Shown: positions 9,901 to 47,149 of the stretch, piece after piece
How the letters are laid out: the number at the start of each line of letters is the position of its first letter
Numbering within the stretch: the first letter of the stretch is position 1
IMG/VR virus record: IMGVR_UViG_3300028008_001583
Span: 1 to 59,764 of that record
Reading direction: 5' to 3' (one strand)
Length of the DNA stretch: 59,764 nt
From: a virus
The notes under the pieces: generated by a model
Told to the model about the DNA's origin: nothing
Database searches by the model: none
What the model saw: only the letters and a program-made list of their open reading frames with translations
Program-made: the position numbers and the translations under genes

Positions 9901-10249
9901 TCTAGTATTAAGTGCGAATGGCACAGGATCGGTAAATATAGATAACATAGCAATAAAAGACAGCACAATTACTAATACACTTGCTGATACTCCGTTATTG
10001 TTTCAACAAGCAGGTAGCGGATATTTCAAAATAGATAGTAATGCAGGTTTTGTTGTTCCAGTAGGTACAAATCTACAAAGACCGGCTCCCGCATATAGGG
10101 AAACAGGAATGACTAGATTTAATACTGAACAACAGTATTTAGAAATCTTTGATGGCAGTTCTTGGGTGTCTGTTGCAGGTACTACAGGATCAATTAGTTA
10201 TGCAGCAGCAGAAGATTTAGTATTAGAATATGTTTTAGTTTTAGGATAA
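6905..10249 (+). CDS. Tail fibre with beta-helix and inserted LamG-like jelly roll (1114 aa)
   Basis: The order follows the 828-aa paralogue: shaft repeats at residues 1-225, beta-helix start YYVSENGDDTN near 228, the DPRGFDQGDAGRGA block, then C-terminal shaft and RFNTEQQYLE motifs. Between residues about 437 and 737 it carries an insertion absent from the paralogue. The insertion centres on a concanavalin/LamG-like domain (about 512-705) with SSLQLDGTQDYI, DDYTVEGWFYFD, WYHIAVSRNG and IDEFRVTKG, a fold that usually binds carbohydrate. A GAGGAG site precedes the ATG. It is likely a receptor-binding or sugar-binding fibre. The ligand is unknown. Confidence 0.8.
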   Translation: MAIGRISGPLLKQNLLREGVNLAFENDLLYLDVQQSKVGIKNASPQYELDVTGTTRTTTLNVSSTANLGDIVINAAGIGTTQDTMVLGTTTGNSVVYQNKLRVDSLELQNNAIRTINSNENLELNPNGTGTVEIFADTNVYGNITATGSITADGNITIGDADTDNITFNAELASNIIPDIDNTYSLGSNPNVAGGKEWSNVYTDEFYGTTVTTTNLNVDGIDLSTRQGNLYYVSENGDDTNSGDHPNDPYGSLRYALSQATSGDTIHIYPGVYQEITPLTVPVGVTVKGHSMRSVILEPTGATHTNDIFLLNGESTVEDVTIRNFYSPGYAFKFANNFTVTSRSPYIRNVSVITQGTQTPANDPRGFDQGDAGRGAYLDGSLANAASREAGCLFHSVTFITPGVDALTITNGTRVEWLNCFTYFANKGLYAVDGATGLKGTGKTAVRVDGLTGGSITAGNTFSYYDTDGTTVLATGTIASVDADDKFYVNGNLSALQVASIRNGKTITRYQNPVTDTGIKKFGTSSLQLDGTQDYIGVTSNNDFGFGTDDYTVEGWFYFDSVAATTNLFDFRAGAGSDIAPLVYINAGGELRFYSYSADRITGSTLTTGQWYHIAVSRNGNDTRLFLDGTLEGTWTISPVDYGVAKPLIIGARWDGANKVDGNIDEFRVTKGLARYTSAFGAIASPFTSDNNTVLLLHFDNADDSSETIVDDTINSQDLRFSNGASASYVTLADQTDFGGEIRSISSACVYGNYGAYGDGAGVLMYLISQNFAYISNGKLTTNDANTVVQLNEVTELNNARVRYSSVDHKGDFRVGDLFYVNQEQGTVDFTSTEFNIDTTSGLTITTGGSNTVITGEKIDTGNLRISGNTIQSLSGDINLSSASGNVKITSTGSLQLPTGDTASRPTAATGMIRYNTDTNLFEGYDGNWIALNGVYDLDLDTKVTAEATPGANDNTIRFYISNAERMSVTDSALETPRIEVDDISIDGNVITTETTDTDLVLSANGTGSVNIDNIAIKDSTITNTLADTPLLFQQAGSGYFKIDSNAGFVVPVGTNLQRPAPAYRETGMTRFNTEQQYLEIFDGSSWVSVAGTTGSISYAAAEDLVLEYVLVLG

Positions 10250-10253
10250 CGAT

Positions 10254-10583
10254 ATGGCAACAGAGTTTAGAAATAAAGTAGTAAAAGAAGTAGGACAACA
10301 AAAAATAGTTGCACTTGAAACTGATGCAGGTACAAAGTCAACTATTATTGGCCTTCAGTTAGCTAACTTAACAGAATTTATAGTATATGCAAGTATACTA
10401 ATTCATGACGATACTAGTGTTGAAGGGTACTTTATGAAAGATATTGTTGTACCTCCAAATACTAGTTTAAAAGCATTAGCTGCAGGCGAAAAATTAATAC
10501 TTGCGCCCTCAAATCAACTATATCTTTTAGCTGATAGAGACGAAGCATTAGACGCAGTAATTAGTTACGTAGATATTGTATAA
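10254..10583 (+). CDS. Small virion protein, beta-rich
   Basis: 109 aa, four bases after the fibre stop. It shares the pattern of the proteins at 3140 and 19577: a central LQLANLTEF strand, a VPPNTSL turn, and a final AVISYVDIV strand. It has no known catalytic motif. Each member of this small family follows a large fibre gene or precedes a fibre block, so a role as fibre or baseplate attachment subunit is reasonable but unproven. Confidence 0.6.
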   Translation: MATEFRNKVVKEVGQQKIVALETDAGTKSTIIGLQLANLTEFIVYASILIHDDTSVEGYFMKDIVVPPNTSLKALAAGEKLILAPSNQLYLLADRDEALDAVISYVDIV

Positions 10584-14821: not shown

Positions 14822-17800
14822 ATGGCTGAATTTAAATTAGGTAGAATTAGGTTTATATGGAAAAGTACCTGGACAGGGTCAACCATATACTACAAAGACG
14901 ACATAGTAAAGCACGGAGGTAACACTTTCGTATGTACAGCAGGACACACAAGTACTAGCGACTTTGATACTGACTTTGCTACATATTGGGACAAACTTAC
15001 CGATGGTCAAGAATGGAAAGGCGATTGGACAGATGCAACTGCTTACAAAATAAATGATATCGTAAAATACGGTGGTTATTTGTATGTTGCAAACCAAGCC
15101 CACACTTCTAATACTTTACTTGAAAATGATCAGTCTAAATGGGATCTTTACGTTGAAGGTTTTGATTGGAAAAACACATGGGCAACTGCTACACATTATA
15201 AAGTTAATGATATTGCAAAATATAATGGTATTAATTATATCTGTATTACAGCTCATACAAGTGCTGCAACAGAATCTGATGGATTAGAAATTGATCAAGC
15301 CAAATGGCAAAAATTTACAGATGGTATGCAATGGCAAAGCGATTGGTCCATCAATACTAGATACCGTGTAAATGATGTCGTTAAGTATGGCGGACAACTT
15401 TATGTTGTTAATACTGGACACACTAGTGCTGCAACAACTACATTAGGACTAGAAGCAGATCAAGCTAAGTTTGATTATTTGCACAAAGGTGTTGAATATA
15501 AAGGACCGTTTACTGCTGGAACAAGATATAAAATTAATGATGTAGTGAAGGCGGGCGGCGGACTTTGGATTTGTACTACACATCATACTGCCCAAGATAG
15601 ACTACAACAGGATGTAGCAAAATGGGCTCAATTTGTAGAAGGTTTAGAATTTGAAGATAGTTGGGGTCCATATAAGAATTACGAAGTAGGTGATATTGTA
15701 ACATACGGCGGCTACTCTTATGTTGCTAAAACTAACAATGTTGGACAACGTCCAACAGACAACGCATCGGATTGGGACTTGTTTAACACAGGATTCCGTT
15801 TTGCAGGTGAATGGGGTGACGATAGTTCTGCAGAAGATTATCTAGTAGGCGATGTAATTAGGCATGGCGGATTTACTTATGTATGTATAGAAGATAATAA
15901 TAATCAAGAACCACCTAATGCAACATATTGGGAAAAGCTTAATGAAGGTGTTAAATGGAAAAACGCCTGGGCAGATGCAACTGAATATGATCTAGGTGAT
16001 GTTGTTATATATAACAATAGTTCGTACATTGCTGTTGCAAAACATACATCCGATGAAACTGTTGCACAAAACAGACCAGATCAAGATACAAACGGTTCTG
16101 AATGGAACTTAATGGTAGGCGGTCCTGAAAATAATGTGATGACCACAGACGGTGATTTAGTTTACTATAGTGGCGCAGGCCCGGCTAGATTGCCAATCGG
16201 AGCTGTAGGAACAATTCTACGTGTTAATGATTTAGGAACAGCACCAGAATGGGGATTCTACGGAGCCATCGATAATGTTGTTTATGTTGATGTTAACGGA
16301 ACAGACGGCGCAGCACCTGGCTTCGGAACAACAATTGATAGACCATTTAAAACAATTAGACATGCTGCATATAATATTGAAGAAGGATATTTGCGTGTAA
16401 ATGCACGTAAATTAATAGAACTAAACAGAGCCTTTATTGCAGATGAAACTGTTGAATGGGTAGATGCACAAGTTACAGCAAATGCAGGCTCACCATTTAC
16501 TAACTCTTTCACATATGATAAAGCTGCGTGGAGAGTATATCTTGGTCGCTTAATTACTTCATTACTTTATGACTTAAGCCACGGCGGCAACGAAATCACA
16601 AGAAAATTAACATTAGATATTTACAACGCAGGCGAAATTACAGGTAAAACAGCAGAGTTTGTTGCTGCAACAGAATATCTTGAAGCAGTAATAGATGCCA
16701 TTATAAGCAATGTTGCGCCAGCAGCTACATATGGTTCGATGACTAGACACGCTGATGCAACACTTATTGAAGAATCTGATGCACAAGGTATTATTGGTAA
16801 TCTTATAGATATACTTACTGATGCTGTTACAGCAGCCGCTACTACAAATGTACCAGCTGAAGTACAACCACAAAATACTATATTTGTAAAAACTGGACAG
16901 CTAACTGAAGTACTTCCGATTGTGATTCCTAAAAATACAGCACTAGTAGGAGACGAACTTCGTTCAACTAGAATTAGTCCAGCAGCTAGTGTTACGCCAG
17001 CAGGAGATACTGTATACAGTCTTGCAGGCATCGGACGACTACAAGCAATTATAAGCGATGCTGTAACCAATCCTGGGAACATTACAAAAACTACAGGTAA
17101 TGCACTAGATCCAGTAACTACACATTCAGTAGGTGCAGGTGCCGCAGGCACAGCAGCTACAGGAATTGTTGAAGATATAAAAGAATATATTGATTTTCAT
17201 ATTAATGCAAACGGTTCAGATCCTACATTAACAGGAACAATGACACAGCTTACTTCAACTGATTATACATATGCAGTTGAATCACTTGAAGCAAATAGAG
17301 AATTCTTAAAAGCTGAAGTAAATGCATTTATTGCTGACGCATATCCGTCGTATACATACGACACTGAAAAGTGTGCTAGAGACGTAAGTAGATATATTGA
17401 TGCTGTGCAATATGATTTAATAAACACAGGAAACTACAAAGCCATCAGAGCAGCTGAAGCTTATGTAAGTTCTGTAGAAGGATCATTAACTAATAATATG
17501 TTCTATATGAGAAATGGCTCAGGCTTTAGAAATGCAACAGTTACGGGCTTAACAGGAACATTAGGTAGTGCAAACTCATATGGTACTAAACGTCCAGGCG
17601 CAGGAGCATATGTATCACTTGATCCAGGATTTGGACCATTAGACGAACATGCTTGGATTACTAATAAATCACCGTATGTACAAAACGTAACAACATTTGG
17701 TACAGGGTGTATTGGTCTAAAAATTGATGGCGCATTGCACGACGGCGGCAATGATTCAATTGTTGCTAACGATTTTACACAGATTTTAAGTGACGGTATT

Positions 17801-19561
17801 GGTGTATGGTGTACTAACTTAGCAAGAGCAGAACTTGTATCTGTATTCTCTTACTATGGACATATTGGCTATCTATCAGAAAACGGCGGCAAGATTCGTG
17901 CTACAAACGGTAACTCATCTTATGGTGATTTTGGTACAGTAGCTGAAGGTGGCGACTCGACAGAAACACCGATTACTGCTACAGTTACTAACCGTTCAAC
18001 AGATGCTCAAATTGGCTCAGTACTTACAGACGGTGATGACATTCTTACATTTGAGTATACAAATGCTGGTGTAAATTATACAAGTGGTAACACAGCATTT
18101 ACAATTTCAGGAGAAGGTTATGGCGCTGCAACTTCTGCAGTGAATACTGTAGACGGAGCAGTGTACGAAGTTAGATTAACTGACCCTTCAAGCAATTTTG
18201 GCGGAGACGGTTATGGTATTGCACAAAATACAGCACAAACTGGAAACACAACTCAAATCACATTAAGTAATACTGATGTAGCTACTAATGCTGCATATAT
18301 TGGAATGGCAATTTGGATTATTAGTGGAACTGGTGCAGGACAATATGCTAACATTGCATCGTTTAATAGCGGAACTAAAATAGCAACAGTTACTAAAGCA
18401 TCAGATGGTTCAGCAGGTTGGGATCATGTCACAGGCGCAAGTATAGCAGCATCTTTAGATGATACAACAGAATATCGCATCGAACCTTCAGTTTCGTTTA
18501 CTGTACCAGAAGGCGGCGGCGGCTATGCAAATACTACTAAAGCTCGTGCTAGAGTAGACGATGAAAAAATTATAGAAATACGTATTTGGGATCCAGGTAC
18601 AGGATATACAAGTGCTCCAACAATGACTATAACAGATCCAAGCAACACAGTAGATGTGCCGCACTTAGTAAGAATAGGTGACGGCGTATTAACTCAGCCT
18701 ACATGGTCTGACAGAGGCACAGGTTTTGCTACTGCAAGTGTGACTGTTGCAGGTGACGGATATGCAGACTTATATCAGCCAGGATTTAATTTAGCTGTAG
18801 AAGCAATGAGTGAGATTCCACAAGCTGGAGCAAATATTGAGATAGCAGGCATAGCAAACACATACTTTAAACTAGTTACAATAAGAGATTTAACTGGCTC
18901 TGGTCCTTACACAGCAACATTGCAATTGTCACCAGAAATAAGTATTACAGATGCACCAGAACACGGTGAAGTTATAGAAATGCGTATAAGATATTCCCAA
19001 GTACGATTAACAGGACACGATTTCTTAGACATCGGCACTGGTAATTTTGGAAACACAAACTATCCTGGAGTGCCTTTAATAGATCCAGACCCTACCAAAG
19101 AAACTAACGATTTGGGTGGCGGACGAGTATTTTATACGTCAACAGACCAAGATGGTAACTTTAGGGTCGGCGAACTGTTTAGTATTGAGCAGGCAACTGG
19201 TATTGCAACTCTTGACGCTGATGCATTTAACATCAGTGGACTACAAGAACTACAACTAGGTGCAATTAGCTTAGGCGGTACAAACGCTACTATTACAGAA
19301 TTTAGTACAGATGGTACGTTTACTGCTGACAGTGATAATATTGTTCCAACACAAAAGGCAATTAAAACTTATATACAAGCACAAATAGGTGGCGGAGCAG
19401 GTGAACTTAATGTTAACCAACTTACAGCAGGTAATATTAGAATTAATAGCGATACTATTACCAACACTCTTGGAGAAACGATAAATATAAGTGCAAAGAC
19501 TAATTTCACAGGCGGCATAAAAGGTGATCCTGTTGCAATGAATTTGTTCTTATCAAACTAA
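14822..19561 (+). CDS. Giant tail fibre: eight CBM-like repeats, interrupted beta-helix (1579 aa)
   Basis: Same plan as the 1269-aa gene. Eight W...D-I/V-V-x-Y-x-G-x-x-Y repeats fill residues about 10-440, a beta-helix starts near 485 (VYVDVNGTDG), and the same C-terminal blocks follow. Relative to its paralogue it has two insertions, about 520-683 and 723-887. Each contains an alpha-helical module with N-x-x-FI-x-x-E, Y-x-x-x-x-C/A and a D-A/S-x-x-YDL motif. The same helical module opens the 2062-aa protein at 29180. The beta-helix resumes with ALVGDELRST and MRNGSGFRN. It is a probable host-binding fibre. The inserted helices are an unusual decoration. Confidence 0.8.
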   Translation: MAEFKLGRIRFIWKSTWTGSTIYYKDDIVKHGGNTFVCTAGHTSTSDFDTDFATYWDKLTDGQEWKGDWTDATAYKINDIVKYGGYLYVANQAHTSNTLLENDQSKWDLYVEGFDWKNTWATATHYKVNDIAKYNGINYICITAHTSAATESDGLEIDQAKWQKFTDGMQWQSDWSINTRYRVNDVVKYGGQLYVVNTGHTSAATTTLGLEADQAKFDYLHKGVEYKGPFTAGTRYKINDVVKAGGGLWICTTHHTAQDRLQQDVAKWAQFVEGLEFEDSWGPYKNYEVGDIVTYGGYSYVAKTNNVGQRPTDNASDWDLFNTGFRFAGEWGDDSSAEDYLVGDVIRHGGFTYVCIEDNNNQEPPNATYWEKLNEGVKWKNAWADATEYDLGDVVIYNNSSYIAVAKHTSDETVAQNRPDQDTNGSEWNLMVGGPENNVMTTDGDLVYYSGAGPARLPIGAVGTILRVNDLGTAPEWGFYGAIDNVVYVDVNGTDGAAPGFGTTIDRPFKTIRHAAYNIEEGYLRVNARKLIELNRAFIADETVEWVDAQVTANAGSPFTNSFTYDKAAWRVYLGRLITSLLYDLSHGGNEITRKLTLDIYNAGEITGKTAEFVAATEYLEAVIDAIISNVAPAATYGSMTRHADATLIEESDAQGIIGNLIDILTDAVTAAATTNVPAEVQPQNTIFVKTGQLTEVLPIVIPKNTALVGDELRSTRISPAASVTPAGDTVYSLAGIGRLQAIISDAVTNPGNITKTTGNALDPVTTHSVGAGAAGTAATGIVEDIKEYIDFHINANGSDPTLTGTMTQLTSTDYTYAVESLEANREFLKAEVNAFIADAYPSYTYDTEKCARDVSRYIDAVQYDLINTGNYKAIRAAEAYVSSVEGSLTNNMFYMRNGSGFRNATVTGLTGTLGSANSYGTKRPGAGAYVSLDPGFGPLDEHAWITNKSPYVQNVTTFGTGCIGLKIDGALHDGGNDSIVANDFTQILSDGIGVWCTNLARAELVSVFSYYGHIGYLSENGGKIRATNGNSSYGDFGTVAEGGDSTETPITATVTNRSTDAQIGSVLTDGDDILTFEYTNAGVNYTSGNTAFTISGEGYGAATSAVNTVDGAVYEVRLTDPSSNFGGDGYGIAQNTAQTGNTTQITLSNTDVATNAAYIGMAIWIISGTGAGQYANIASFNSGTKIATVTKASDGSAGWDHVTGASIAASLDDTTEYRIEPSVSFTVPEGGGGYANTTKARARVDDEKIIEIRIWDPGTGYTSAPTMTITDPSNTVDVPHLVRIGDGVLTQPTWSDRGTGFATASVTVAGDGYADLYQPGFNLAVEAMSEIPQAGANIEIAGIANTYFKLVTIRDLTGSGPYTATLQLSPEISITDAPEHGEVIEMRIRYSQVRLTGHDFLDIGTGNFGNTNYPGVPLIDPDPTKETNDLGGGRVFYTSTDQDGNFRVGELFSIEQATGIATLDADAFNISGLQELQLGAISLGGTNATITEFSTDGTFTADSDNIVPTQKAIKTYIQAQIGGGAGELNVNQLTAGNIRINSDTITNTLGETINISAKTNFTGGIKGDPVAMNLFLSN
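14850..16130 (+). repeat. Eight tandem coding repeats (CBM-like modules)
   Basis: Second array of eight W...D-I/V-V-x-Y-x-G modules, in the same number and order as in the upstream paralogue. The array was therefore present before the gene duplicated. Confidence 0.75.
18998..19029 (+). repeat. 32-bp block identical to 14200-14231
   Basis: Second copy of the shared block described at 14200, in the 1579-aa fibre gene. Confidence 0.7.
19118..19164 (+). repeat. 47-bp block identical to 14338-14384
   Basis: Second copy of the shared block described at 14338, in the 1579-aa fibre gene. Confidence 0.8.
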
Positions 19562-20228: not shown

Positions 20229-21218
20229 GTGGCAGATCCAGCAGTATATAATGCAGTACTAAATGAAAGCAAATGCATTCAAGAAAAAATACAAGATGAA
20301 CAATTAGCAGCGGCTCTAGCAGCACTTGCTAGCGATCCTGCAGATTCGTCAAACTGGGGGCTTTTGCCTCTACTAGAAAGTCCTACTGGATGCTTATGTG
20401 TACTAGACAGTGACGCAAATCGTTTAAGATGCGGCGCAGGCTGCACATGGACAGTCCCGGCAGGAACGTCAAAAGTACAATTCCAATTATGGGGCCCAGG
20501 CGCACATACAAACAATGGAATGTGTTGCGCAGGTTCACCATCGGGTGCTAACGGCGCATATGCAACTGTTATTATTGATGCTACTCCTGGAGATAGTTAT
20601 ACATTATGTGCAGGATGCGCTGCATGTTGTTATGGGTATTGTTCACAAGGTCACATCGCTTGTGGTAGCAGCACATATGTAAACGGTAACGGTATTAGTG
20701 GTCTTTGCGCGGAAAGCGGCTACTCAAGAATTTCATGTGGTATGAAAGATTTGCATGGTTCAATTAGTCAATGTAGATGGCGCGGACAAGGTTCAAGCGA
20801 TCAATCAGGACCGTGTATTTGCGGAAGCGGAGGATGGTATTGTTTTGATAATTCATGTGCATCATGTGGAGAGGTTCCGTTTACTCCGTCAAATGATAAT
20901 ACATATGCTGGCACTTCGACTTCAGGAACAGTTTACGGCTTACCGGCTATTTGGGCAGGAGGCTGCTTTGATACTAACCATTACGGATATATGAAATCAC
21001 CTCCTGTGATTGGACCGTGTCATACAGTTCAATCAAACTCAGAATGTTGCTACAGCTTTAGCAGTGGCAGCTGCTGTGGTGGTTGTCGTTGTAGAGCAAG
21101 CGACGGTCACAGACGTTATCCGGGCGCAGGCGGAACATATACACATATGATGGGCGGATCAATGTACTGGTCAGGCGACTATGGGCGCGGTGGCATGGTA
21201 AGAGTAACTTGGTGTTAA
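20229..21218 (+). CDS. Cysteine-rich, glycine-rich tail protein (329 aa)
   Basis: Starts at GTG, with TAGGAGAA upstream. I count 30 cysteines in 329 residues, including CC pairs (AACCYGYC, SECCYSF, SCCGGCRC). The N-terminus is a short helix (NESKCIQEKIQDEQLAAAL). A glycine-rich module follows with WTVPAGTSKVQFQLWGPG, SGANGAYA and GDSYTLCAGC, which resembles the Gly-rich domains of phage adhesins. The C-terminus RYPGAGG...GRGGMVRVTW closes the same module. A paralogue lies at 21882. Cysteine may form disulfides after release or bind metal. Both are inference. Confidence 0.75.
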   Translation: MADPAVYNAVLNESKCIQEKIQDEQLAAALAALASDPADSSNWGLLPLLESPTGCLCVLDSDANRLRCGAGCTWTVPAGTSKVQFQLWGPGAHTNNGMCCAGSPSGANGAYATVIIDATPGDSYTLCAGCAACCYGYCSQGHIACGSSTYVNGNGISGLCAESGYSRISCGMKDLHGSISQCRWRGQGSSDQSGPCICGSGGWYCFDNSCASCGEVPFTPSNDNTYAGTSTSGTVYGLPAIWAGGCFDTNHYGYMKSPPVIGPCHTVQSNSECCYSFSSGSCCGGCRCRASDGHRRYPGAGGTYTHMMGGSMYWSGDYGRGGMVRVTWC

Positions 21219-21232
21219 AAGGAAAATAAATT

Positions 21233-21871
21233 ATGGAAAAAACATTTACAGTAAACGTTCCGGACGATCTTTGGGTAGATGCCTGGACAGAAAACAAAAC
21301 AACTGATTATACATATAACGGTCCGGCGACTTTACATGTAGTTGTTAGAACAATCGATGGTTTTGATATAGTTAGTTGGGGAGAAACTGCTCCAACTGCT
21401 ATTAATGAAGACATTGAACAAGTAGTAGAGCTTGATGCTAACACTGATACTGGTGTTGCATGGACAATGATACATGAAGGAGATGATTGGGATTATACAT
21501 ATACTACTGTAACCAATCATGATGATTCGACTCATGAAGAAACGAATAATCCTAAACTGACTGATATTTATGAAGCAGTATGGTCTCCGGGTGACGGATT
21601 TGCATTAGCTCCTATCTATAAAGAGACAGAGACGATGGCCGAAAGAACAGCCAAAGAACGTAAATCATATGTTGTAAAGTACGATGACGCTTATGACTTT
21701 GACGCAGATACGCAAGCAGTAATTGATCAATTTAAAACTGATATGGATGCTTATCTAGCAACAATGGCTACAGCTTATCCTTGGAGATACGTAACTATTG
21801 ATCATAGTGCTATTCCAAAAGTTCCTGCATCATTAGTAGCTACGTTCAATACTCTGCCTGACATAGCTTAA
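21233..21871 (+). CDS. Hypothetical protein between cysteine-rich paralogues
   Basis: 212 aa, acidic and rich in Thr, Asp and Trp, with no cysteine visible. It begins MEKTFTVNVPDDLWVDAW. The C-terminal half has a helical run (YDFDADTQAVIDQFKTDMDA). I recognise no family. Its 14-base and 10-base gaps to the two cysteine-rich genes and an AAAGGAAAATAAA site show that it belongs to the same transcript. It could be a chaperone or partner of those proteins. Confidence 0.6.
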   Translation: MEKTFTVNVPDDLWVDAWTENKTTDYTYNGPATLHVVVRTIDGFDIVSWGETAPTAINEDIEQVVELDANTDTGVAWTMIHEGDDWDYTYTTVTNHDDSTHEETNNPKLTDIYEAVWSPGDGFALAPIYKETETMAERTAKERKSYVVKYDDAYDFDADTQAVIDQFKTDMDAYLATMATAYPWRYVTIDHSAIPKVPASLVATFNTLPDIA

Positions 21872-21881
21872 GGAGAAATTA

Positions 21882-22979
21882 ATGAGTGACGTAATTTTAT
21901 ACGCAGCAATTAAAGAAAACGAACGCTTGCAAAGAGAACTTATAGAGCTTTGCGCAGGAGGCGGCGGATCGTTTGATTATACTCAACCTGCTCCTGCAGG
22001 TTATCCGTATAATTCAGGATCAACAGGTGGCGGCGGAGGCGGAAACGAATTCTCATCTACCCCTAGTATTGTAACAAGCTGGATCAATAACTTGTGTCCT
22101 AAAGTTTGTCCGGCACAAACATATGGATTTAAAGTATGTGATAACAGCGGATATTATAGATGTAATAGAAACTGTAACTGGTCAGTGCCATCGGGTGTTT
22201 CAAATGTACAAGTTCAAATGTGGGGACCAGGCGCTGGCACCAGCGGTAACTGTTGCTGCGGCGGATCTCCATTTGGTCCAAGTGGTGCATACATGGTAAT
22301 GCAGTTTTGTGTTAATCAAAGTGAAACATATTGCTTTTGTTCAGGATGTGCATACTGCTGCTGGGGAGAGCAAACAACTCCAGGCATTTGTGGCACACCT
22401 ACTTGGTTTAACTCAACATCAGGTATTCAAGCTTGTGTTGATAGTGGTATTAGTTGCTTTTGTTACTGGAACGAAGATTTAAAATCAAATACTGCAACTT
22501 GCGGACACAGAATTCCAGATCCAGATCTAGCAGGATCAGGATCTTGCTCAGCGAATAGATGCTCCGGTTGGAATTTTTGTTATGATGACTGGGAAGATGA
22601 ATCAAGAGCATGTCACGCATTTGCAAGTAGAACAACTTTTCACGTACAGAGTCAAGCAAGTGATGGCAGAGAGATTACAAAATACGGGCTTAATGGTTTA
22701 TGGCCTGCACATTGTACAGGCGGTTCAGGCAGTTGCTTACATAGTAGCACAGGCTATTCAACTCCGGTATTTGGATTTGAAAATTGTGTATGTACCGCAA
22801 CATACACAGGCAGTGACATGAACGAAGGTCAAAGAGGATGCTATTGGAACGCACCAAACGGCTATATGAGAATTCCAGGCGCAGGCGGATATCACACTTA
22901 TAGCTGTGGCGGAGGCAATGCATGTCAGGGCGACTCAGGACGCATGGGCATGATTTGTGTAAGCTGGGAGTGCAACTAA
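21882..22979 (+). CDS. Cysteine-rich, glycine-rich tail protein (365 aa)
   Basis: Paralogue of the 20229 gene. It has the same opening helix (LYAAIKENERLQREL), then a polyglycine linker, then WSVPSGVSNVQVQMWGPG, PSGAYMVM and the closing RIPGAGG and MGMICVSWEC. I count 33 cysteines in 365 residues, with clusters CCCGG, CFCSGCAYCC and SCFCYW. The Gly-rich adhesin-like core is conserved between the two, while the middle third differs, as expected for receptor-specificity regions. An AGGAG site lies nine bases before the ATG. No function is established for this family by anything I can see. Confidence 0.75.
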   Translation: MSDVILYAAIKENERLQRELIELCAGGGGSFDYTQPAPAGYPYNSGSTGGGGGGNEFSSTPSIVTSWINNLCPKVCPAQTYGFKVCDNSGYYRCNRNCNWSVPSGVSNVQVQMWGPGAGTSGNCCCGGSPFGPSGAYMVMQFCVNQSETYCFCSGCAYCCWGEQTTPGICGTPTWFNSTSGIQACVDSGISCFCYWNEDLKSNTATCGHRIPDPDLAGSGSCSANRCSGWNFCYDDWEDESRACHAFASRTTFHVQSQASDGREITKYGLNGLWPAHCTGGSGSCLHSSTGYSTPVFGFENCVCTATYTGSDMNEGQRGCYWNAPNGYMRIPGAGGYHTYSCGGGNACQGDSGRMGMICVSWECN

Positions 22980-23015: not shown

Positions 23016-23040
23016 TTAGTAATAAAGGACACTAGATGAT
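22998..23040. promoter_or_regulatory. Inverted repeat flanking the -10, probable operator
   Basis: ATCATCTAGTGT at 22998-23009 and its exact complement ACACTAGATGAT at 23029-23040 are 12-bp arms 19 bases apart. The left arm fills most of the spacer and the right arm covers the region just before and including the ATG. The centre-to-centre distance is 31 bases, about three helical turns, which suits a dimeric repressor. Confidence 0.55.
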
Positions 23041-23617
23041 TAAAAATTTATTTCCAACTCCAGTAAAATTTTCTAATTTAACACTATCGACAGCTCTTTT
23101 ACAACAAGAAGTAAAAGAGCTGTTTTCTCTTGGCTACGGTAGTGATTTAAAAAGCGGAGTAAACGGAACGCGACTAGATATAACAAATGAGTTGTTAGAA
23201 GAAAAAAAGCCGCAAACTATTATTAAACTACTAACACACATACAAGAAGAAGTTTATAACTATTGCAAAGAAGTCAATATCAAACCACAGTATATAACAC
23301 AATCGTGGATAAATGTAAACCCAAAAAATTCTATTAATGTAAGACATAGTCATCCAGGAAGTGTGCTAAGTGGAGCATACTATATGAAATATCCTACAGA
23401 TGCAAACAGTCCTTTAAGCTTTTATCGCAGCAGAGAATTTTCAGATTATGGGTGGAGCTCAATGTCTTTAGATCAAAATATTGAGCTGCAATCAATTTTT
23501 AAGTATTTTCCTGTTGACAATGATCTAGTTATTTTTCCTAGTTTTGTAGAACATGATGTATTGCCTAATCAGAGTAACGAAGACAGGATTAGTTTATCCT
23601 TTAACACTTCACCGTAG
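23036..23617 (+). CDS. 2-oxoglutarate/Fe(II) oxygenase-like protein
   Basis: 193 aa. NVRHSHPGSVLSGAYYMK supplies the first iron-ligand region and LVIFPSFVEHDVLP the distal histidine, followed by DRISLSFN where the 2-oxoglutarate-binding arginine is expected. This matches the putative 2OG-Fe(II) oxygenases often found in marine phages. It would use 2-oxoglutarate and oxygen to hydroxylate an unknown substrate. It is the first gene after a sigma70 promoter and may be expressed before the structural genes. The second oxygenase at 37187 is of a different type. Confidence 0.75.
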   Translation: MIKNLFPTPVKFSNLTLSTALLQQEVKELFSLGYGSDLKSGVNGTRLDITNELLEEKKPQTIIKLLTHIQEEVYNYCKEVNIKPQYITQSWINVNPKNSINVRHSHPGSVLSGAYYMKYPTDANSPLSFYRSREFSDYGWSSMSLDQNIELQSIFKYFPVDNDLVIFPSFVEHDVLPNQSNEDRISLSFNTSP

Positions 23618-23675
23618 CCAGAATTAAAATTTTTTACATAAAATAAAAATATATACTATGCATAGAGGAGTATTT

Positions 23676-24650
23676 ATGAAGAAAGCGTTTTTTATTAACG
23701 GCGGAGCAGGCCGTGTATTATGCAGTATACCTGCATTAGAATATTACAAAGAAAATATTGATTCTGATGTAGTAATAGTATCCGAAGCATGGCACGAACT
23801 GTTTTTATCTTCGTCGCTTAGAAGTAATGTTTGGCCAGCTGGCAGTAAAGATTTATTTCAAACAGTTTTGAAAGATAGAGAAATTATAAGTCCAGAACCT
23901 TACAGACTAAATGCTTATTTTAATCAACGTGTTAATCTAATACAAGCGTTTGACATGTTAATTAATGATGTAGATGAAAATGTTGCTATAAAAGAAATAA
24001 ATTTAGATTTAGGAAAAGCAGATCAAATCTACGGTTATAATTTAATTAATCAAGTTAAAATGCAGATGAAAAAAGATAAAGCAATTGTATTTCAACCTTT
24101 TGGCAGCGGAGTAAAAATAGATGGTAATTTTGTATTTGATGAAAGCGGCAGAAGTTTTGAATTATCAGATGTATTTAGAATTGTTGATGAATTAGCAAAA
24201 GACTACGCAGTTATTTTAATGACTAATTTAAAAATACCAACTGATAGACAGATGGGTGCAGCAATTCCAGAAGACGCAGGATTATTACAATGGATGGGTA
24301 TTGTAAATGCAGCAGACTATTTCCTTGGCTGTGATAGTATGGGTCAACATTATGCACATGCATTAGGTAAGCCGGCTACTGTAGTAATAGGCTCTACATT
24401 TCCAGAGAATATAAGTTATCCTGGAAATAAAGACTTTACAATCATTGATAGTGGCAAAGAAAACAGAGTTTATGTACCATATAGAGTTACTTCTGATCCG
24501 GCATCAGAAAGACATAATGAAGATAATATGATATTAAGCGATGAAAATTATAAGAAAATAATGAAAAGTATAAAAGATAAATTAGGAAAACCTATTTCTA
24601 AAAATAGTTTTCCATTAGCTAATAAACCAAAAGTAATCGGAGAAAAATAA
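23676..24650 (+). CDS. Glycosyltransferase family 9-like (heptosyltransferase-type) protein
   Basis: 324 aa from the ATG at 23676, with AGAGGAG upstream. The ATG at 23658 lies before that site and is rejected. The fold of ADP-heptose:LPS heptosyltransferases is suggested by GGAGRVLCSIPALEYY at the N-terminus and by NAADYFLGCDSMGQHYAHALGKP near residue 215-240, followed by VVIGSTFPENISYPG. That region binds the nucleotide-sugar donor in GT9 enzymes. The ADP-heptose operon at 35-39 kb makes ADP-heptose an attractive donor. The acceptor is unknown. Confidence 0.7.
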   Translation: MKKAFFINGGAGRVLCSIPALEYYKENIDSDVVIVSEAWHELFLSSSLRSNVWPAGSKDLFQTVLKDREIISPEPYRLNAYFNQRVNLIQAFDMLINDVDENVAIKEINLDLGKADQIYGYNLINQVKMQMKKDKAIVFQPFGSGVKIDGNFVFDESGRSFELSDVFRIVDELAKDYAVILMTNLKIPTDRQMGAAIPEDAGLLQWMGIVNAADYFLGCDSMGQHYAHALGKPATVVIGSTFPENISYPGNKDFTIIDSGKENRVYVPYRVTSDPASERHNEDNMILSDENYKKIMKSIKDKLGKPISKNSFPLANKPKVIGEK

Positions 24651-24652
24651 CT

Positions 24653-26455
24653 ATGTCATCAGGATACATTTTAGGAATTTCAAGAGGCCATAATGCAGGC
24701 GTATGTCTACTTAAAGATGGCCAAATTGTTTTTGCTAGTGAAGAAGAAAGATTTACTCGTCACAAATACGACGGCGGCCCGTTGGCAACGATGATGAAAG
24801 TAAAAGAATACACTGATAAAATTGACGCTATTGTTGTGTGTCATACTACAGATTTAAAAGATGGACCTAAGATAGAATATACTGGTGATAATCTTTATTC
24901 TGGATTAGCTAGAAAAATGGGGTTGATTGATCGAAAAGCTGATATACATAGACACCCGCAGTGTATAGACGTCTCTAATCTTCACCATAAAGTACATGCT
25001 GCTTGTGCGTTTTATCGTTCTGGGTTTGACGAAGCTGTTGCTGTCGTTATCGACGGCGCAGGGTCAGCAATGACTGGAGAGACGCAAGACGGTCCTGTAA
25101 CATTATGGGAAGTAGAAAGTATATACGATTGCTCTTATCCAGACAATATTAAAACATTATATAAACATTATGGTTGTAGAGATCCTATTGTTACTGCTAT
25201 TAATCCTAAAACTAATGGAGAACAATTTGGCGATGCACCGGGCCATACATTTACATCGGTTGTTTCAGGACATGCAGGTATTACAAAAGTCTATGAAGCA
25301 GTAACTCAGTATTGCGGATTTCAAGCAATTGAAGCAGGAAAAACAATGGGATTGTTTCCGTACGGAGCCGAAAATGAAAATATTCCTAAATTGTTTACAA
25401 CAGATACAAAAATTCCATTATCTAATCGTACTATGATAGTTCCAACATATCCAAATGGTGCTATTGTAAATCATTATAATTATGATGAATTATCGCCTAG
25501 TCCAACGGGTGACGAGACTGATTGGACCGAATACCAAAATAGAAGAGATTTAGCGTATGCTTGTCAAACACAAACACAAGAACAATCACTTGATATAATA
25601 CTTTCCGCAGTTAAAATGTCTGGTAAGAAGAAAGTAGTGTTAAGTGGAGGATACGGATTAAATTGCGTAGCAAACTACTGGTATTTGAATAGATTAAATG
25701 AAGAAGGTATCGAATTGTTTGTTGAGCCTATTTCAAACGACGGTGGAACGGCTATTGGAGCAGCTCTATTATACTATCATTCTGTAGAGCAGTCAGAGTT
25801 AAGACGACCTAGAGAGATATATTTAGGACCTCAATACAATTATACTGACGATGAAATTAATAAACTTGCCGAAGAATACAATGCAATTGTTGAAGATGCA
25901 ACAGACGAAAAAGTTATTGAGTTAATGACAAATAAAAATATTGTAGCAATGTTTCAAGGCAGAGCAGAAAATGGTCCTAGAGCATTAGGCAATAGAAGCT
26001 TAATGTTTGATCCAACATTTGAAGACGGCAAAGACTTTGTTAACGAAATTAAACGTAGAGAATATTTCCGCCCGTTTGCTGGGTCTATTCTTGCTGAAGA
26101 TGCACACGAATGGTTTGACCTACGCGGTATGGAAGATAGTCCGCATATGATGTATGCTGTTAACTGTCAGCCAGGGATTGCTGAAAAAATTCCTAGCATT
26201 ATTCATGTTGACGGAACTTGTAGGATACAAACAGTTAATGAAGAAGAAAATCCTCTTTATTATCGTGTGATCAAAGCATTTAAAGAAAAGACAGGAGTAC
26301 CAATCATCTTTAATACTAGTTTTAACCTTGGCGGCGAGCCACTAGTTGAAACACTCGAAGATGCACTTTGGACCTTAAGCGAAAGTAAGATTGAATATCT
26401 ATATTTGCCTGAATACGGAAAACTTCTTACAGTCGGAAATTGGACAATTGCTTGA
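24653..26455 (+). CDS. Carbamoyltransferase, NodU/CmcH family
   Basis: 600 aa, the full length of the family, two bases after the previous stop. The N-terminal half has GISRGHNAGVCLL, EEERFTRHKYDG, HHKVHAACAF and VVIDGAGSAM, the Kae1-like ATP/carbamoyl-adenylate domain. The C-terminal half has GGYGLNCVANYW, NDGGTAIGAAL, GRAENGPRALGNRS and GVPIIFNTSFN, the carbamoyl-transfer domain. It converts carbamoyl phosphate and ATP to carbamoyl-AMP and transfers the group to a hydroxyl, usually on a sugar. Beside GT and methyltransferase genes it probably carbamoylates a sugar. Confidence 0.92.
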   Translation: MSSGYILGISRGHNAGVCLLKDGQIVFASEEERFTRHKYDGGPLATMMKVKEYTDKIDAIVVCHTTDLKDGPKIEYTGDNLYSGLARKMGLIDRKADIHRHPQCIDVSNLHHKVHAACAFYRSGFDEAVAVVIDGAGSAMTGETQDGPVTLWEVESIYDCSYPDNIKTLYKHYGCRDPIVTAINPKTNGEQFGDAPGHTFTSVVSGHAGITKVYEAVTQYCGFQAIEAGKTMGLFPYGAENENIPKLFTTDTKIPLSNRTMIVPTYPNGAIVNHYNYDELSPSPTGDETDWTEYQNRRDLAYACQTQTQEQSLDIILSAVKMSGKKKVVLSGGYGLNCVANYWYLNRLNEEGIELFVEPISNDGGTAIGAALLYYHSVEQSELRRPREIYLGPQYNYTDDEINKLAEEYNAIVEDATDEKVIELMTNKNIVAMFQGRAENGPRALGNRSLMFDPTFEDGKDFVNEIKRREYFRPFAGSILAEDAHEWFDLRGMEDSPHMMYAVNCQPGIAEKIPSIIHVDGTCRIQTVNEEENPLYYRVIKAFKEKTGVPIIFNTSFNLGGEPLVETLEDALWTLSESKIEYLYLPEYGKLLTVGNWTIA

Positions 26456-29179: not shown

Positions 29180-32100
29180 ATGGCAAAAACACAACTAAAA
29201 AATTATGTATTTAAACCGGGTATCGGAGCAATAGATTATGTATATCCTAACGCTTATAGTTTGCTAAGTGCAAACAAAAGTTTTATACAAAAAGAAGCAA
29301 CAGCTTGGATACAAGATCAAGTAGATGCAAGTGCAACTGGATTTGTAGGATATACATATAATCAAGCAAAATGTGAAAGAGATGTAGGATACGTTGTTGA
29401 TGCATACTTAAAAGACCTGCGATACGGCGGTAATGAAAATGTAATTAAAACTATTCGGTACTATTGGGATCAAGATGTTGCACAAGTTGACGGCGACAGA
29501 CAACCTGAGATACAAACACACACTTTTATTAGTACACTAATAAGAGATTATATTTTTGCAAACAGTTTATATTCTGCTTCAAATAGCGAAGTAACACAAA
29601 CAGTAGATACAAATACTACTGTAGAAACTACAGTACAGTTTACACCTACAGATGCTAGTTACACACCAACTACGGGAGTAATGACATTAACAATCGGCAC
29701 TCATTCTCTAGCAGTAGGAGATGAAATACACATTGCTCCGGGTGCTATAACTTTTACTTGCTTGCTTGACGGCGGAGCAACAACGCACCCTTATCCTAGA
29801 GCAACAGGTGTTCCTAATGCAAAAGGAAGAGATCCGTATTATTATGCACCTTTAACAATCACATCTGTAACTGGTACTACTATTACTATGAATGTAGGAA
29901 TATCTTCAGATACTTCTGTACACTCGTTTGATAGTGCAACAACAAATGGCGTTACTTCTGGACCTAGTGCAAAGATTAATACACTAGCATTTAATACAGT
30001 TGATACAATTACAAATGGTCTTAATGGACTACCAACACTAGTTCCTACAGGAGTAGGTACTGTTAAAGTGCAAGGTAGATGGGATTTAGAGCAGATTTTA
30101 TTAGTTACAAATACAACTTCTAATGAAATTATATATAATTTTAGTTCACCTACAGCAGGCGGCTCAATAACACAAAAAACTGACGGCGTAAATAAAGATC
30201 CGGATTTTCTAAAATATCTAGAAACTACTGATGCCATTACAACACTAACGTTAAATTATAATACCCGTACACATAGCTCCACAGATGCTTTGCAAATTTT
30301 TGCAGAAGAAATAGAAAATGGTAAAAGCGTTGTAACAACAAGACCGTATGATTTTGGATCAGATGCTATTGAACGTATGCGTGTTGCACAGCCATTATCA
30401 ATGCTTGACGCTGACTTTGAGTACGGACTACAGCCTACCAAGTGGGCAGCAATTGGAACATTGCGAGGATATCCTTCAGTATACGAAGTTCCAGGTACTG
30501 ATACTCCAGTACTATCTGTTGTAACAGATGCTTCGGCAGGAACAGAAGGCATAGGCCAATCACAAATAACTGTAACAACAGTCGGGCCACACGGTTTTGA
30601 ACCAGGTACACCGATAACTATTAAAGCACTAGAAGACAGTGTTAGCGGAGCAGCTAGAGCAGAAGGTAGTTTTGTAATAGTTGAAGTCCCTACAAATAAC
30701 TCGTTTACATTTTTTGCAAAGTCAAAAGTTGGCACTGTTAATCCTACTACACTATCTACAACATATACTCAATTAAGAAAAGCAGGATTTTACACAGGTG
30801 CAAGTATTGGACAACCTGAGGTAACTGTTGTAAGTAATGGTAGTGCAGGAACACTAGTAGCAGAATTAGACATTGCTAGCGGAAGTACAGTCATACCATT
30901 TGACGGTCCGTCGCCAGAAGTTGGTGCGCCACTAGTAAATGCAAATATTCCGGAAGGTTCTCAGGTAACATCGATAATCGATACAAGTGCTGGCGGAGGC
31001 GACTATATTACTCCAGTAACAATTGCAAATATTAATCCAGGAGATCTTAGTTTTACTGTACAGGACTCAACTGGCATTGTAGATAATCTTGCTTTAGATA
31101 GAGGCGACGGTACAGCTATCTATGTAACCAGTGTTGCTGGTTCTACAGTAAATATGTCTGGGGCATTTACTGGTGCATACGTAGCTAATACTGCAAACTA
31201 TGCAATTGCACCGACCGCAATTGTATCTAGTGGTACAGGCGCCCTAGTTAATATTTCATCAGCAGGAGGAACATATACACTTGATGGATTGGCAAACCAA
31301 GGCGACAACTATCAAGTAGGAGATATATTACTCATACAAGGCAATTTATTAGGCGGTACATCTCCTACTAACGACCTTACATTAAGAGTGTTAACATTAG
31401 ATAGTGATACAGGAATAGGAACTTTAGAACTTACTGGAAATGCATTTGACGGTACTACTACTATAACTAATCTAACAGGCGTAGTCGTTGGCAACAACGG
31501 CACAGACGGCAAATTTGATATTGTTATGTTAAACAATGCATATACAGCTGATGTAGCATCACCTGATACTTCACTAGGCTATATTGTTAATGATGTTATA
31601 AAAATACCAGGAAACTTGATTGACCCTACAGCAGGAACAACTCCTGCTAATGATGCATATGTAACAGTCACTGGCATAGGCGCCGGCGGATCGATTACAA
31701 GTGTATCTGTTGACGGTACTGCACCTGATGCACAACTACAATTTTTTAACCCAACTAATTCAACTAACGGCTCAGGCAGCGGCATTATATTTACAGTATA
31801 TACTAATGGTACGACATATAGTGTCACAGTTGATCCGCTTAATCAAGGTATAAATTACTTACCTGGCAATACTATTACAGTTACTGGAGATTTATTAGGC
31901 GGCGCAACCCCTGCTAATGACTTAACAATTACTGTCGATAACGTAGGCGGTGGCGGAGAAGTTACTGCTCAATCAATTGCAGGAACTGCATATAATGGCA
32001 GATCTTCTGTAAATCTTCCAGGCAGTAATGTAGTTGGCACAGGCGCAACTTTTGACGTAGGATTAGCAGGCGGCACATATACTGTTACACTAACTGACGG

Positions 32101-35100
32101 CGGTGATAGTTATGGCGCAGGACAAGAAATACTAATTCCAGCAGGCACAACTATTCCGGGTACTAGTCCTGCAAACGATTTAACAATTGCAATTGATACA
32201 GTTGATGCAGTTGCCACTGGCACGATAGGTACAATTACCGAATCTGGCACAGCTTATGGCGGAACCGGAACATTTAATGGAGTGCCAACTACACTACAGC
32301 CGGTCTCTGGCAATAGCTTTAGTGTGAATATTAGTAGGGCCAACGGGACTTATGGAATAGCATTAGACAACGGTGGCACAGGCTATGCTATAGGAAATAC
32401 ATTTAGAATAAATGGTCCACAGCTTGACGGACTACAGCCATTAAATGACATTACACTAGTTGTTTCGAGTATCGATGTAAGTACAGGTGAAATTACAGCA
32501 TTTACAAATACATACGAAAGTGCTGCTCCTGGAGATGTATTAACACTTATTAGTACTGTTATTGTAACTGATGCTACTACAGCACCTATAACTAGATCAT
32601 CTCAAATTACTTATGGTGCATTGGCAACACTAGAAATAACACTATCTAATGCACATGGACTGGTTCCTGGTAACACATTTATTGTTACTGCTAGTTCAGA
32701 TGACGGCGTAAATAATCATGATTTAGCAGCAGGTTCGTTCTTTGTTACAGATATACCAGCTGTAAATAAACTTCGATATCAAGCAAGAACAACTGGTACT
32801 ATTGACGTAACTAGTGGAGAAATTTTAGGAATATTATATCCAAGACCTGACAGCTTCTTTGTTCACAGACCATATGACGGCGGTGTACAGTTAGGTACAG
32901 GCGGTCCACAGCATGGCGCACAAGCAATACGTCAAAGTAAAAAATATATTCGTTACCAGTCAGGTAAAGGTATTATGTATACAACTGGTGCGCTATTTGC
33001 ACCAAGTTATGATTTACGTAGCCTTACAGCCGATGATGTAGAAGTGGGAAGTTTAATCACAGTTACAACAGATGACAACGATCATGGTGTACAAGCAGGC
33101 GGCATAGTTAGAATACTAGGCGTAGAAACTCCAGGATATAACAGTGGACCACAAACTGCTGTTCCTCCTACATTTGATTATACTGTTGAAAGTGTAATAG
33201 ATGAACGCACATTTACAATACGAGCACAGCGTAGATTAGGAGCAACCACTGCTATACTAGGCTTTGGCTCACAGATGAGTGTTGTTGCTTGGCACGGTGC
33301 TACAGTACGTTCAGGTATCTTTGACGATCAAAACGGCATTTTCTGGGAGTTTGACGGCACACAAATCAGTGTAGTACAACGTACAGGCACTAGACAGTTA
33401 GCAGGTACAATTGCATTAGATATAGATGAAAATTTGGTAACTGGAACAAACACAAGATTCACAGACCAATTGAAGGCTGGAGATAGAATTATTATCAAAG
33501 GTATGACGCATGTTGTGTCACACGTAAACAGTCAAACCGAATGTACAATAACACCAGATTTCCGCGGCGTTGTAAATATCACAGGCGCAAAAGCAAACTT
33601 AATTGTAGACAAGAAAACAAAACAAAGCGATTTTAATCTAGACAGATTAGACGGCACTGGTCCAAGTGGTTACGATATCGACATTGCTAAGATGCAGATG
33701 ATTGGTATTCAATACAGTTGGTATGGTGCTGGTTTTATTGACTTTATGCTACGTGGTTCAGATGGTAATTTTGTTTTTGCACATAGAATGCGTAACTCAA
33801 ACGTAAACACAGAAGCGTTTATGCGTTCAGGTAACTTGCCTGTACGTTATGAAGTTACTAACGAAGGTCCTCCGGGCAAACTAGCAGCAGCAATGGATGC
33901 AAGTCAAGATACTGCGGTATTAACTGATACTAGTTTCTTCCCAGACTACGGCACAATATATGTCGATAACGAAATTATGAACTTTACTGGCAATAATAAA
34001 GTAGATAACATCCTAACTGGCTTAACAAGAGGAGCAACATTTTCAAACTTCCAAGCAGGTGCGACAAGATCATATACTGCAAGTGCAGCAACAACGCACA
34101 ATGACAGGACTGGTGTTGTATTGATATCGCAAACAATTACACCATTGATTAGTCACTGGGGTAGTGCGTTTATTACAGACGGCATGTTTGACGATGATCG
34201 AGGATATATTTTCTCATACGCTGAGACAGGCGTTGAAGTTAGTACTACAAAACAAAGTGCTTTCTTAATTAGACTATCTCCTAGCGTTTCAAATGCACTA
34301 GTAGGAGACCTAGGCGAAAGAGAATTGCTAAACAGAGCACAGTTACTACTACAAGGCATTGAAGTTACGTCAGACGGTGTAGATACTGGAAATAGTAATG
34401 CTCCGGTCGTGGGTGGTATTGTTATTGAAGGTGTTCTTAATCCGCAAAACTATCCACTTAATCCAGCAGATATTGGTTGGACAACATTGAGTGGTGTTGC
34501 TCAAGGTGGTCAGCCTAGTTTTGCACAAATTGCTTCAGGCGGTAGTGTTAACTGGTCAACAGGTGAAGCTGCAACAACTGCTACAGTTAGTTCTCAAGCA
34601 GCAATATCCATAAATATGGATAGTGGGCGATATAGATCTGATAGAAACCGTAATCTTATTTGGATAAATGCTAATGATTATAGAAATACATTTGGTACAA
34701 CAAGTCTGGCGCCTGTGCAAGGTAAGACAATTATAAATGCTGGCTCTTATTCAAACATACAATCAGGAACTACAATCACTGGCGGATATATGAATAACAG
34801 CGGCGATTATGGTTATTTTATATTAAGCAGAAATACTACTAATAATAACAACGATAGAATCAACGCAGCCACTGCTAATGCATATACAATACAGTCAGCA
34901 GATATACCGTTGGTTGATAGAAACTTTGCATATTTTGACAAGACAAGTTTTGATTCATCAGGCGCAAAAATAGGTACAGAATTATCCAACGGCGGCTCAG
35001 TAAGCTTTCCATCTAACACATTGATCAACAGTATAGATCTAGTAGATTTCGGCGGAACTGAATATTACGAAGTACAGTTTAACCAGTCATTTAGTGGTAC

Positions 35101-46800: not shown

Positions 46801-47149
46801 GACTCGTGCAAGAAATGCAAGTGCATTAGACAGAGTAAACGTAGCACGTTTAACTGTGTACTTACGTGGACAGCTTGAGTTACTTGCAAGACCTTACTTG
46901 TTTGAACCTAATGACAAAGTAACAAGAGATCAAATTAAATCAGCTGCTGATCAACTACTATTAGAACTTGTAGGATTAAGAGCTGTATATGACTTCTTGG
47001 TAGTGTGTGATGAAACAAACAATACACCAGCAAGAGTTGATAGAAACGAACTTTACTTAGACGTAGCTATTGAACCGGTTAAGGCGATTGAATTTATTTA
47101 CATTCCGCTAAGACTTAAGAACACTGGAGAAATTTCGGCACTAGGTTAA
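43820..47149 (+). CDS. 18: Tail sheath protein gp18
   Basis: 1109 aa, far longer than T4 gp18 (659 aa). The N-terminus MALVSPGVEVNVIDESFYTP and the C-terminal FIYIPLRLKNTGEISALG are the conserved sheath ends that form the contractile lattice. Residues about 135-700 are an expanded outer region. It holds two modules (about 240-320 and 433-543) with the pattern T-L-T-L-N-G, aliphatic-A-x-A-I-N, ng-x-L-E-I-Y or V-V-I-E-H. They resemble flagellin or hook-type inserts. The expansion should decorate the sheath surface. Confidence 0.93.
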   Translation: MALVSPGVEVNVIDESFYTPGAAATVPMIFVATASNKTRASGNGLAQGTTAANAGKAYLITSQRELGDLFGDALFESDNNGNMIHGGELNEYGLNTAYSLLGVTNRAYVVRADVDLAELSPTSVAPGGEPLDGAHWFDTTNTSLGILEWNAAPITTTGGQSFSTAVVRVLTEGTEVTGSGPRGSIGSIGEYALDATVNTNDLYYKSNGRSLNTTSGEWVKVGSAKWKASWPTVSAATKNPSMTNSDTLTLNGETITVGGTGLVADLVAAINGTSALTNAGVSAYNNNGILEIYSTGANIVLADGTGTPLAAAGIADGTSVAPQVAIAPHTSVPEYKSSDTTPAPTGSLWIKTTVPNGGANWRVKQYSTDTQLWSNVSAPIYTSNESALFALDKTGGGTNLLVGDIYINANKEEISPAVIDFQIQQKFRAGATQVVSDTISTISAGDYSFDLGETIVNSATLTNKTVGPITLLGDEDDAELIATAINSTAFTNVIAYVNATNKVVIEHKLGGDIRIDDTDGLFAAMGMAGLNAAGSNSATATPGLFVAPTGDSKYGLVASNWKPLTYTASENEPLALTQDGQRWYNSTIDEVDIMIHNGTTWVGYQNYNGDYANTNPAGPIVSASAPKAADGQSDASPLVDGDLWISTADLENFPLVYRWNGTSEEWVLIDKTDQTTENGIVFGDARWSLTGGATDGPFVGADIDELLTNDFLDPDAPDPALYPKGMLLWNTRRSGFNVKRFVRNYVDVAGANGRFLVDDPQSVDPADVIDEPMASYYPHRWVTDSGNNEDGSGTFGRFAQRKSVVQALQSLVNSNQDIRDEESRQYNLIAAPGYPELIGEMITLNVDRRLTAFVVGDTPMRLTPDATSLNEWANNVRGALEDNDNGAVSKDEYLGMYYPSGFTSDNFGNNIVVPASHMALRTLVLNDQVAFPWFAPAGTRRGGVSNATSSGYISSEGEFVGVSLNTGQRDTLYSNQINPITFINGAGLVVFGQKTRARNASALDRVNVARLTVYLRGQLELLARPYLFEPNDKVTRDQIKSAADQLLLELVGLRAVYDFLVVCDETNNTPARVDRNELYLDVAIEPVKAIEFIYIPLRLKNTGEISALG

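Follow-up and report, generated by a model that had tools for sequence, protein, structure and literature searches.

The myocyanophage Pam3 carries a tail fiber protein, gp24 (PDB 7YPX), with two N-terminal helices, one long and one short, and a glycine-rich domain in which 39% of residues are glycine (PMC9608196). Here we compare with it two paralogous proteins, A and B, encoded by a viral stretch of 59,764 nucleotides (positions 1 to 59,764 of IMG/VR record IMGVR_UViG_3300028008_001583; the window). Phage structural proteins are assembled in the reducing cytoplasm and seldom contain many cysteines. Cysteine makes up 9.1% of A (four CC and four CxxC motifs) and 9.0% of B (two of each), the two highest values among the plausible genes of the window, where the background across 49 such genes is 0.72% (binomial P of ~2e-23 for A and ~2e-25 for B). 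A and B are 34% identical over 274 aa and have 16 aligned cysteines in common. The initial annotation had singled out paralogs of 329 and 365 aa with 30 and 33 cysteines in CC and CxxC clusters, conspicuous at about 9%, and both the counts and the alignment confirm this description. The span that it covered (20229-22979) also holds a third gene, the cysteine-free M, between A and B (Table 1). Next in cysteine content on the forward strand is a 243-aa open reading frame at 564-1295 (4.1%).

The hypothesis that A is a TNF-like and glycine-rich fiber tip was set down before structure prediction, from a WTVPxG...WGxGGG motif and the Pam3 fiber paper (PMC9608196). The AlphaFold2 model of A (pLDDT 89.5; pTM 0.88) begins with a long helix and then a short one, the order seen in gp24, and continues into a β-rich head. 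When the PDB was searched with this model, the best four matches were all phage fiber or tail-tip chains (Pam3 and Bxb1), followed by ALK and LTK domains (Z of 7 to 9). By sequence, A and B obtained no annotation from Pfam, NCBIfam, or the PDB, and A had no match to the Pfam family PF21722 (Gly_rich_2) at an E value of ≤1. B gives the best Gly_rich_2 match in the window, a weak one at 22170-22292 (13.5 bits against a cutoff of 24.3); 9 of 108 members of the A/B family match the domain, and relatives in phage S-SSM7 exceed its curated cutoff. An invented glycine-rich consensus searched against the PDB retrieved mainly scFv linkers and was rejected. On the basis of the model, we consider it very probable that the head of A has a TNF-like/glycine-rich fold. 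Ordinary Gly_rich_2 domains in phages carrying the A/B family, including P-SSM2, contain 29 to 42% glycine and 0 to 0.9% cysteine, whereas residues 89 to 321 of A contain 18.5% glycine and 10.3% cysteine. This exchange of glycine for cysteine is thus confined, within the set of domains examined, to the A/B lineage, and the cysteines probably occupy positions at which ordinary relatives with this fold carry glycine.

Gene synteny argues for a tail-tip cassette. The order long fiber, two small proteins, A, M, B, and glycan genes recurs in phages P-SSM2 and S-CAM1, and conservation of the individual neighbors was counted over 74 family loci (Table 1). In P-SSM2, a cultured Prochlorococcus phage with a complete genome, the homologs of A and B are PSSM2_304 and PSSM2_306, with PSSM2_305 between them, preceded as in the window by a tail fiber and two small genes. 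PSSM2_304 and PSSM2_306 each contain 10.1% cysteine, the top two values among 164 P-SSM2 open reading frames of at least 150 aa, with the next at 4.0%. The initial annotation had pictured a glycine-rich, adhesin-like scaffold, and this part holds up: the model of A matches solved tail fiber and tail-tip proteins, and both genes lie downstream of a long fiber gene. A role for A and B as tail-tip adhesins is likely. In most loci, the tip genes are trailed by glycan genes, namely, a carbamoyltransferase and a glycosyltransferase-like gene (23658-26455 in the window, with counterparts in P-SSM2, S-SSM7, and S-CAM1), which in cyanophages are joined by heptose genes. Elsewhere in the window are a 2062-aa virion structural protein (phrog_5838; 29180-35368), downstream of the cassette, and a tail sheath protein (43820-47149) that, at 1109 aa, is longer than the matched sheath profiles (496 to 962 positions).

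Table 1. Features of the tip cassette and its neighbors in the window
Feature	Position	Strand	Evidence
Long tail fiber protein, 1579 aa, probable tip carrier	14822..19561	+	phrog_9851 tail fiber, E 3e-219; homolog upstream in 64/74 loci
Small tail-fiber-related protein, 105 aa	19577..19894	+	phrog_11338 tail fiber, E 2e-11; 43/74 loci; P-SSM2 counterpart PSSM2_302
Small cassette protein, 98 aa	19920..20216	+	Homologs in 46/74 loci, ~300 bp before first tip gene
A, cysteine-rich TNF-like/glycine-rich tail fiber tip (predicted)	20229..21218	+	GTG start; 329 aa; 30 Cys
A residues 4-45, predicted stalk/docking segment	20238..20363	+	Model helices H4-35, H40-45
A residues 52-329, TNF-like and glycine-rich head (predicted)	20382..21215	+	VIA Z 12.9, rmsd 3.0, 185 aligned, 7ypx_A
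Top-conserved cysteine loop C127-x2-C130-x2-C133-C134	20607..20630	+	88-94% Cys per column, 108 sequences
M, cysteine-free, 212 aa, probable fiber chaperone/assembly partner	21233..21871	+	68/74 loci
B, second cysteine-rich tip (predicted)	21882..22979	+	365 aa; 33 Cys
B residues 1-38, N-terminal docking segment (predicted)	21882..21995	+	57.9% identical to L010:9668-10363 across 38 aa
2OG-Fe(II) oxygenase	23036..23617	+	PF13759, E 7e-22; homolog in 16/74 loci
330-aa protein, weakly glycosyltransferase-9-like	23658..24650	+	PF01075, E 0.13; 68/74 loci, downstream
Nol-like carbamoyltransferase	24653..26455	+	phrog_1601, E 1e-167; 65/74 loci, downstream

The position of M and its architecture, by analogy with the Pam3 system, suggest that it could be a fiber chaperone. 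Its model (pLDDT 95.6) has a β N-terminal part and two long helices. A search for relatives with the single M sequence gave no match, and three good structural matches were found for it, its own homologs in P-SSM2 and S-CAM1 among them. The match to the Pam3 chaperone (7ypx_a) is weak (Foldseek E value of 0.86; Z of 4.5), and M as a proven Pam3-type chaperone was rejected on these values. In S-CAM1, three cysteine-rich paralogs with a different N terminus are followed by a single M, and M and tips of this type co-occur in the same 11 S-CAM1 and S-CAM3 records. M is absent between the paralogs of S-SSM7 and between those of two other loci (L043 and L094), and it was looked for and not found in locus L229. 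M is thus a usual but not an obligatory member of the cassette.

When IMG/VR loci and phage records were scanned with profiles, at least 145 distinct full-length members of the A/B family emerged, with a median cysteine content of 9.3% (6.1 to 11.7%). Cultured carriers are P-SSM2, P-SSM5, S-SSM7, S-SSM6a, Sf-FS3, S-CAM1, and S-CAM3; one paper names virion proteomes for the cyanophages S-SM1, S-PM2, and Syn9, with no carrier among them. A search of 84,980 prokaryote species genomes returned zero A/B homologs and thus gave no sign there of a cellular origin or of prophage carriage. All 108 aligned members match phrog_35878, and 101 of the 108 match phrog_4205, so the sequence family had already been clustered; the two entries describe the same family without function, fold, or cysteine chemistry, and a search of the literature for the homologous locus tags found no paper. 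The A/B family is real, conserved, and previously clustered yet unexplained. The large terminase subunit of the window (53659-55239) has its nearest relatives, at 54% identity, in jumbo Pseudomonas phages such as PA5oct and not in cyanophages. Together with the cyanophage-like cassette, this suggests that the cassette appears to be common to Kyanoviridae and another myovirus lineage.

The cysteines of A are under selection. Compared with its three closest relatives, A retains 29 of its 30 cysteines and a fraction of 0.77 to 0.81 of its other residues, even though 11 to 14 cysteine codons have changed synonymously; among near relatives more broadly, 26 to 29 of the 30 are retained, with many silent TGT/TGC changes, and dN/dS in close-relative comparisons is 0.08 to 0.21, at about 0.1 for the three closest. 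Across the 108 aligned members, 13 columns are cysteine in at least 81% of sequences (68, 72, 99, 100, 127, 130, 133, 134, 160, 182, 198, 205, and 273 in A numbering). Unconserved cysteine positions, the outcome that the initial annotation had named beforehand as counting against its proposal, are excluded for this core by the conserved columns and the close-relative retention. The remaining cysteine columns are 30 to 60% occupied and variable, alternating with Y, R, N, S, and W. Such variability across the family is what would be expected if cysteine were an ordinary small residue that has drifted upward in a tolerant glycine-rich lattice and makes only a few structural contacts, an explanation with which the modest overall excess of cysteine co-changes over controls also agrees. 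Drift is nonetheless very unlikely, as cysteine outlasts other residues in close comparisons and none of the 145 members falls below 6% cysteine.

Joint gain and loss of cysteines was assessed on a tree of 145 sequences built with cysteine masked, covering 3240 pairs, with p values that are approximate because they rest on a simple branch-length model. Only two pairs survive correction for the 3240 pairs: C68-C133, which co-change on 6 branches against 0.27 expected (p of 4e-7), and C157-C229, which co-change on 7 branches (p of 4e-7). Pairs reach 1e-5 at a rate of 0.0006 for cysteine columns versus 0.0001 for matched non-cysteine columns. That two pairs are gained and lost jointly on the tree favors disulfides, and among the three possibilities raised in the initial annotation (disulfide locking after release, metal or Fe-S binding, and redox-triggered change), the first receives the most support, from these coupled pairs. 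C157 is frequently cysteine without C229, and C59 and C325 are both cysteine in 90 of the 145 members yet lie outside the top tree-tested pairs. Tree-free correlations were strong for several cysteine pairs, but with a tree of 108 sequences none survived multiple testing.

Iron has been proposed to play a role in the tails of marine phages, and the cysteines of A and B might instead bind metal, as a zinc thiolate or Fe-S center with C127-x2-C130-x2-C133 as first ligands, giving a metal-stiffened or iron-carrying tip. The C-x2-C-x2-C spacing is indeed conserved at 85 to 94%, and positions 68, 130, 133, and 134 are lost jointly in some clades (L052, L065, and L072/L074/L087). In L059 and L084, however, 68 and 133 are lost while 130 and 134 are kept, and L070 displays the reverse, in a loop whose alignment is ambiguous; such separate losses argue against a single four-cysteine metal site. 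Some 30 cysteines, many at variable places, are likewise unlike one site, histidine amounts to 1.4%, and we regard metal binding as improbable.

Disulfides would not account for every cysteine either. The cysteine number is odd in 67 of the 145 members, about as frequently as it is even, so that not all cysteines are paired and free or interchain cysteines must exist. This would suit surface thiols that form mixed disulfides with the host surface or sense its redox state, as would the many half-occupied columns and the survival of cysteine richness through exchange of the head domain (see below). However, conservation of the core cysteines goes far beyond what a shifting contact surface would show, and two of the cysteine pairs change together; a free-thiol function seems doubtful to us. 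Returning to disulfides, DsbA and VKOR homologs were not found in P-SSM2, S-SSM7, or Sf-FS3 by searches in which the controls worked, and a search for phage-encoded Evr1/Alr oxidants was negative, with controls likewise silent. Any disulfides would thus form spontaneously after lysis or through host enzymes. We judge the chances that the tips are stapled by disulfides after release to be evenly balanced.

In one locus (L010), the slot of B is occupied by a protein (9668-10363; P0001) in which an N terminus like the docking helix of B (E value of 7e-10 with an N-terminal profile) is fused to a domain that the family profile does not recognize (E value of 2). It has 24 cysteines in 232 aa, or about 10%. 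Relatives of this second domain occur at L229:4995-5708, beside an A-type tip, and at L231:3749-4594, in a Kyanoviridae single-cell virus, where the domain again lies between the fiber and 105-aa genes and a carbamoyltransferase-like gene. In all three sequences 21 cysteines are invariant, which also counts against drift. It is apparently unrelated to the A/B head by sequence, and because this apparently unrelated domain in the B slot is again 10% cysteine, cysteine seems to track the slot and not the fold. If the unrelatedness holds, cysteine richness would seem to belong to a position in the virion rather than to one fold. Each copy of the second domain is followed by a gene of 122 to 124 aa (L010:10390-10761, L229:5723-6094, and L231:4632-4997), which may be the domain's own assembly partner. 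A broader and more tentative proposal, plausible but short of an even chance, is that, in aquatic myoviruses, one site on the virion selects for cysteine irrespective of fold. Two or more nonhomologous adhesin domains of ~10% cysteine would then occupy it, be made reduced, and be finished outside the cell, through disulfides, metal, or receptor thiols, giving a tip that is redox-matured after lysis.

We propose that the paralogs A and B form the receptor-binding tips on tail fibers, placed in the virion with a helical N terminus that, as in Pam3 gp24, would dock and trimerize, and with the TNF-like and glycine-rich head as the distal, host-meeting surface. In the A/B lineage, cysteine would have taken the place of much of the head glycine. 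The tips would fold in the reducing cytoplasm, probably aided by the cysteine-free M. Once lysis has released the tips into oxygenated water, a subset of the cysteines could close into disulfides, with C68-C133 the best candidate and C157-C229 another in relatives having both. These bonds would staple loops that are held by the glycine lattice in ordinary members and so permit the display of loops with less glycine and more variation. A and B are probably adhesins oxidized after lysis, and we lean slightly toward the reading as a whole, that of paralogous fiber tips in which glycine has been replaced by cysteine and which are disulfide-stapled after lysis.

If the tips are oxidized or metallated only after release, phages already in culture would have a maturation step outside the cell, one that bears on host recognition by marine phages and on possible metal in their tails. 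The family places selected cysteine where a known fold has glycine, in widespread probable fiber tips that also occur in Prochlorococcus and Synechococcus phages available in culture. Beyond the initial annotation, the analysis adds the extent of the family, the cassette partner M, and a seemingly unrelated cysteine-rich domain that replaces the head of B.

Among known systems, A shares its predicted head fold with Pam3 gp24 (Z of 12.9; PDB 7YPX; PMC9608196), and the likeness extends to the phage tail and to a partner gene adjoining the tip genes in both. M is larger than the Pam3 chaperone gp25 and weakly similar to it. The likeness to the TNF-like/glycine-rich extracellular domains of ALK and LTK, which are eukaryotic receptor ectodomains, is one of fold only, and Gly_rich_2 (PF21722) is matched by some relatives while the window proteins stay below its curated cutoff. 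The very high glycine content and GGGGxGG feature of gp24 are absent from A (18.5% glycine in residues 89 to 321 compared to 39%), which is therefore classed as a variant and not as a member of the glycine-rich type. From the predicted structure, we take the A/B family to be a version of the Pam3-type fiber tip enriched in cysteine.
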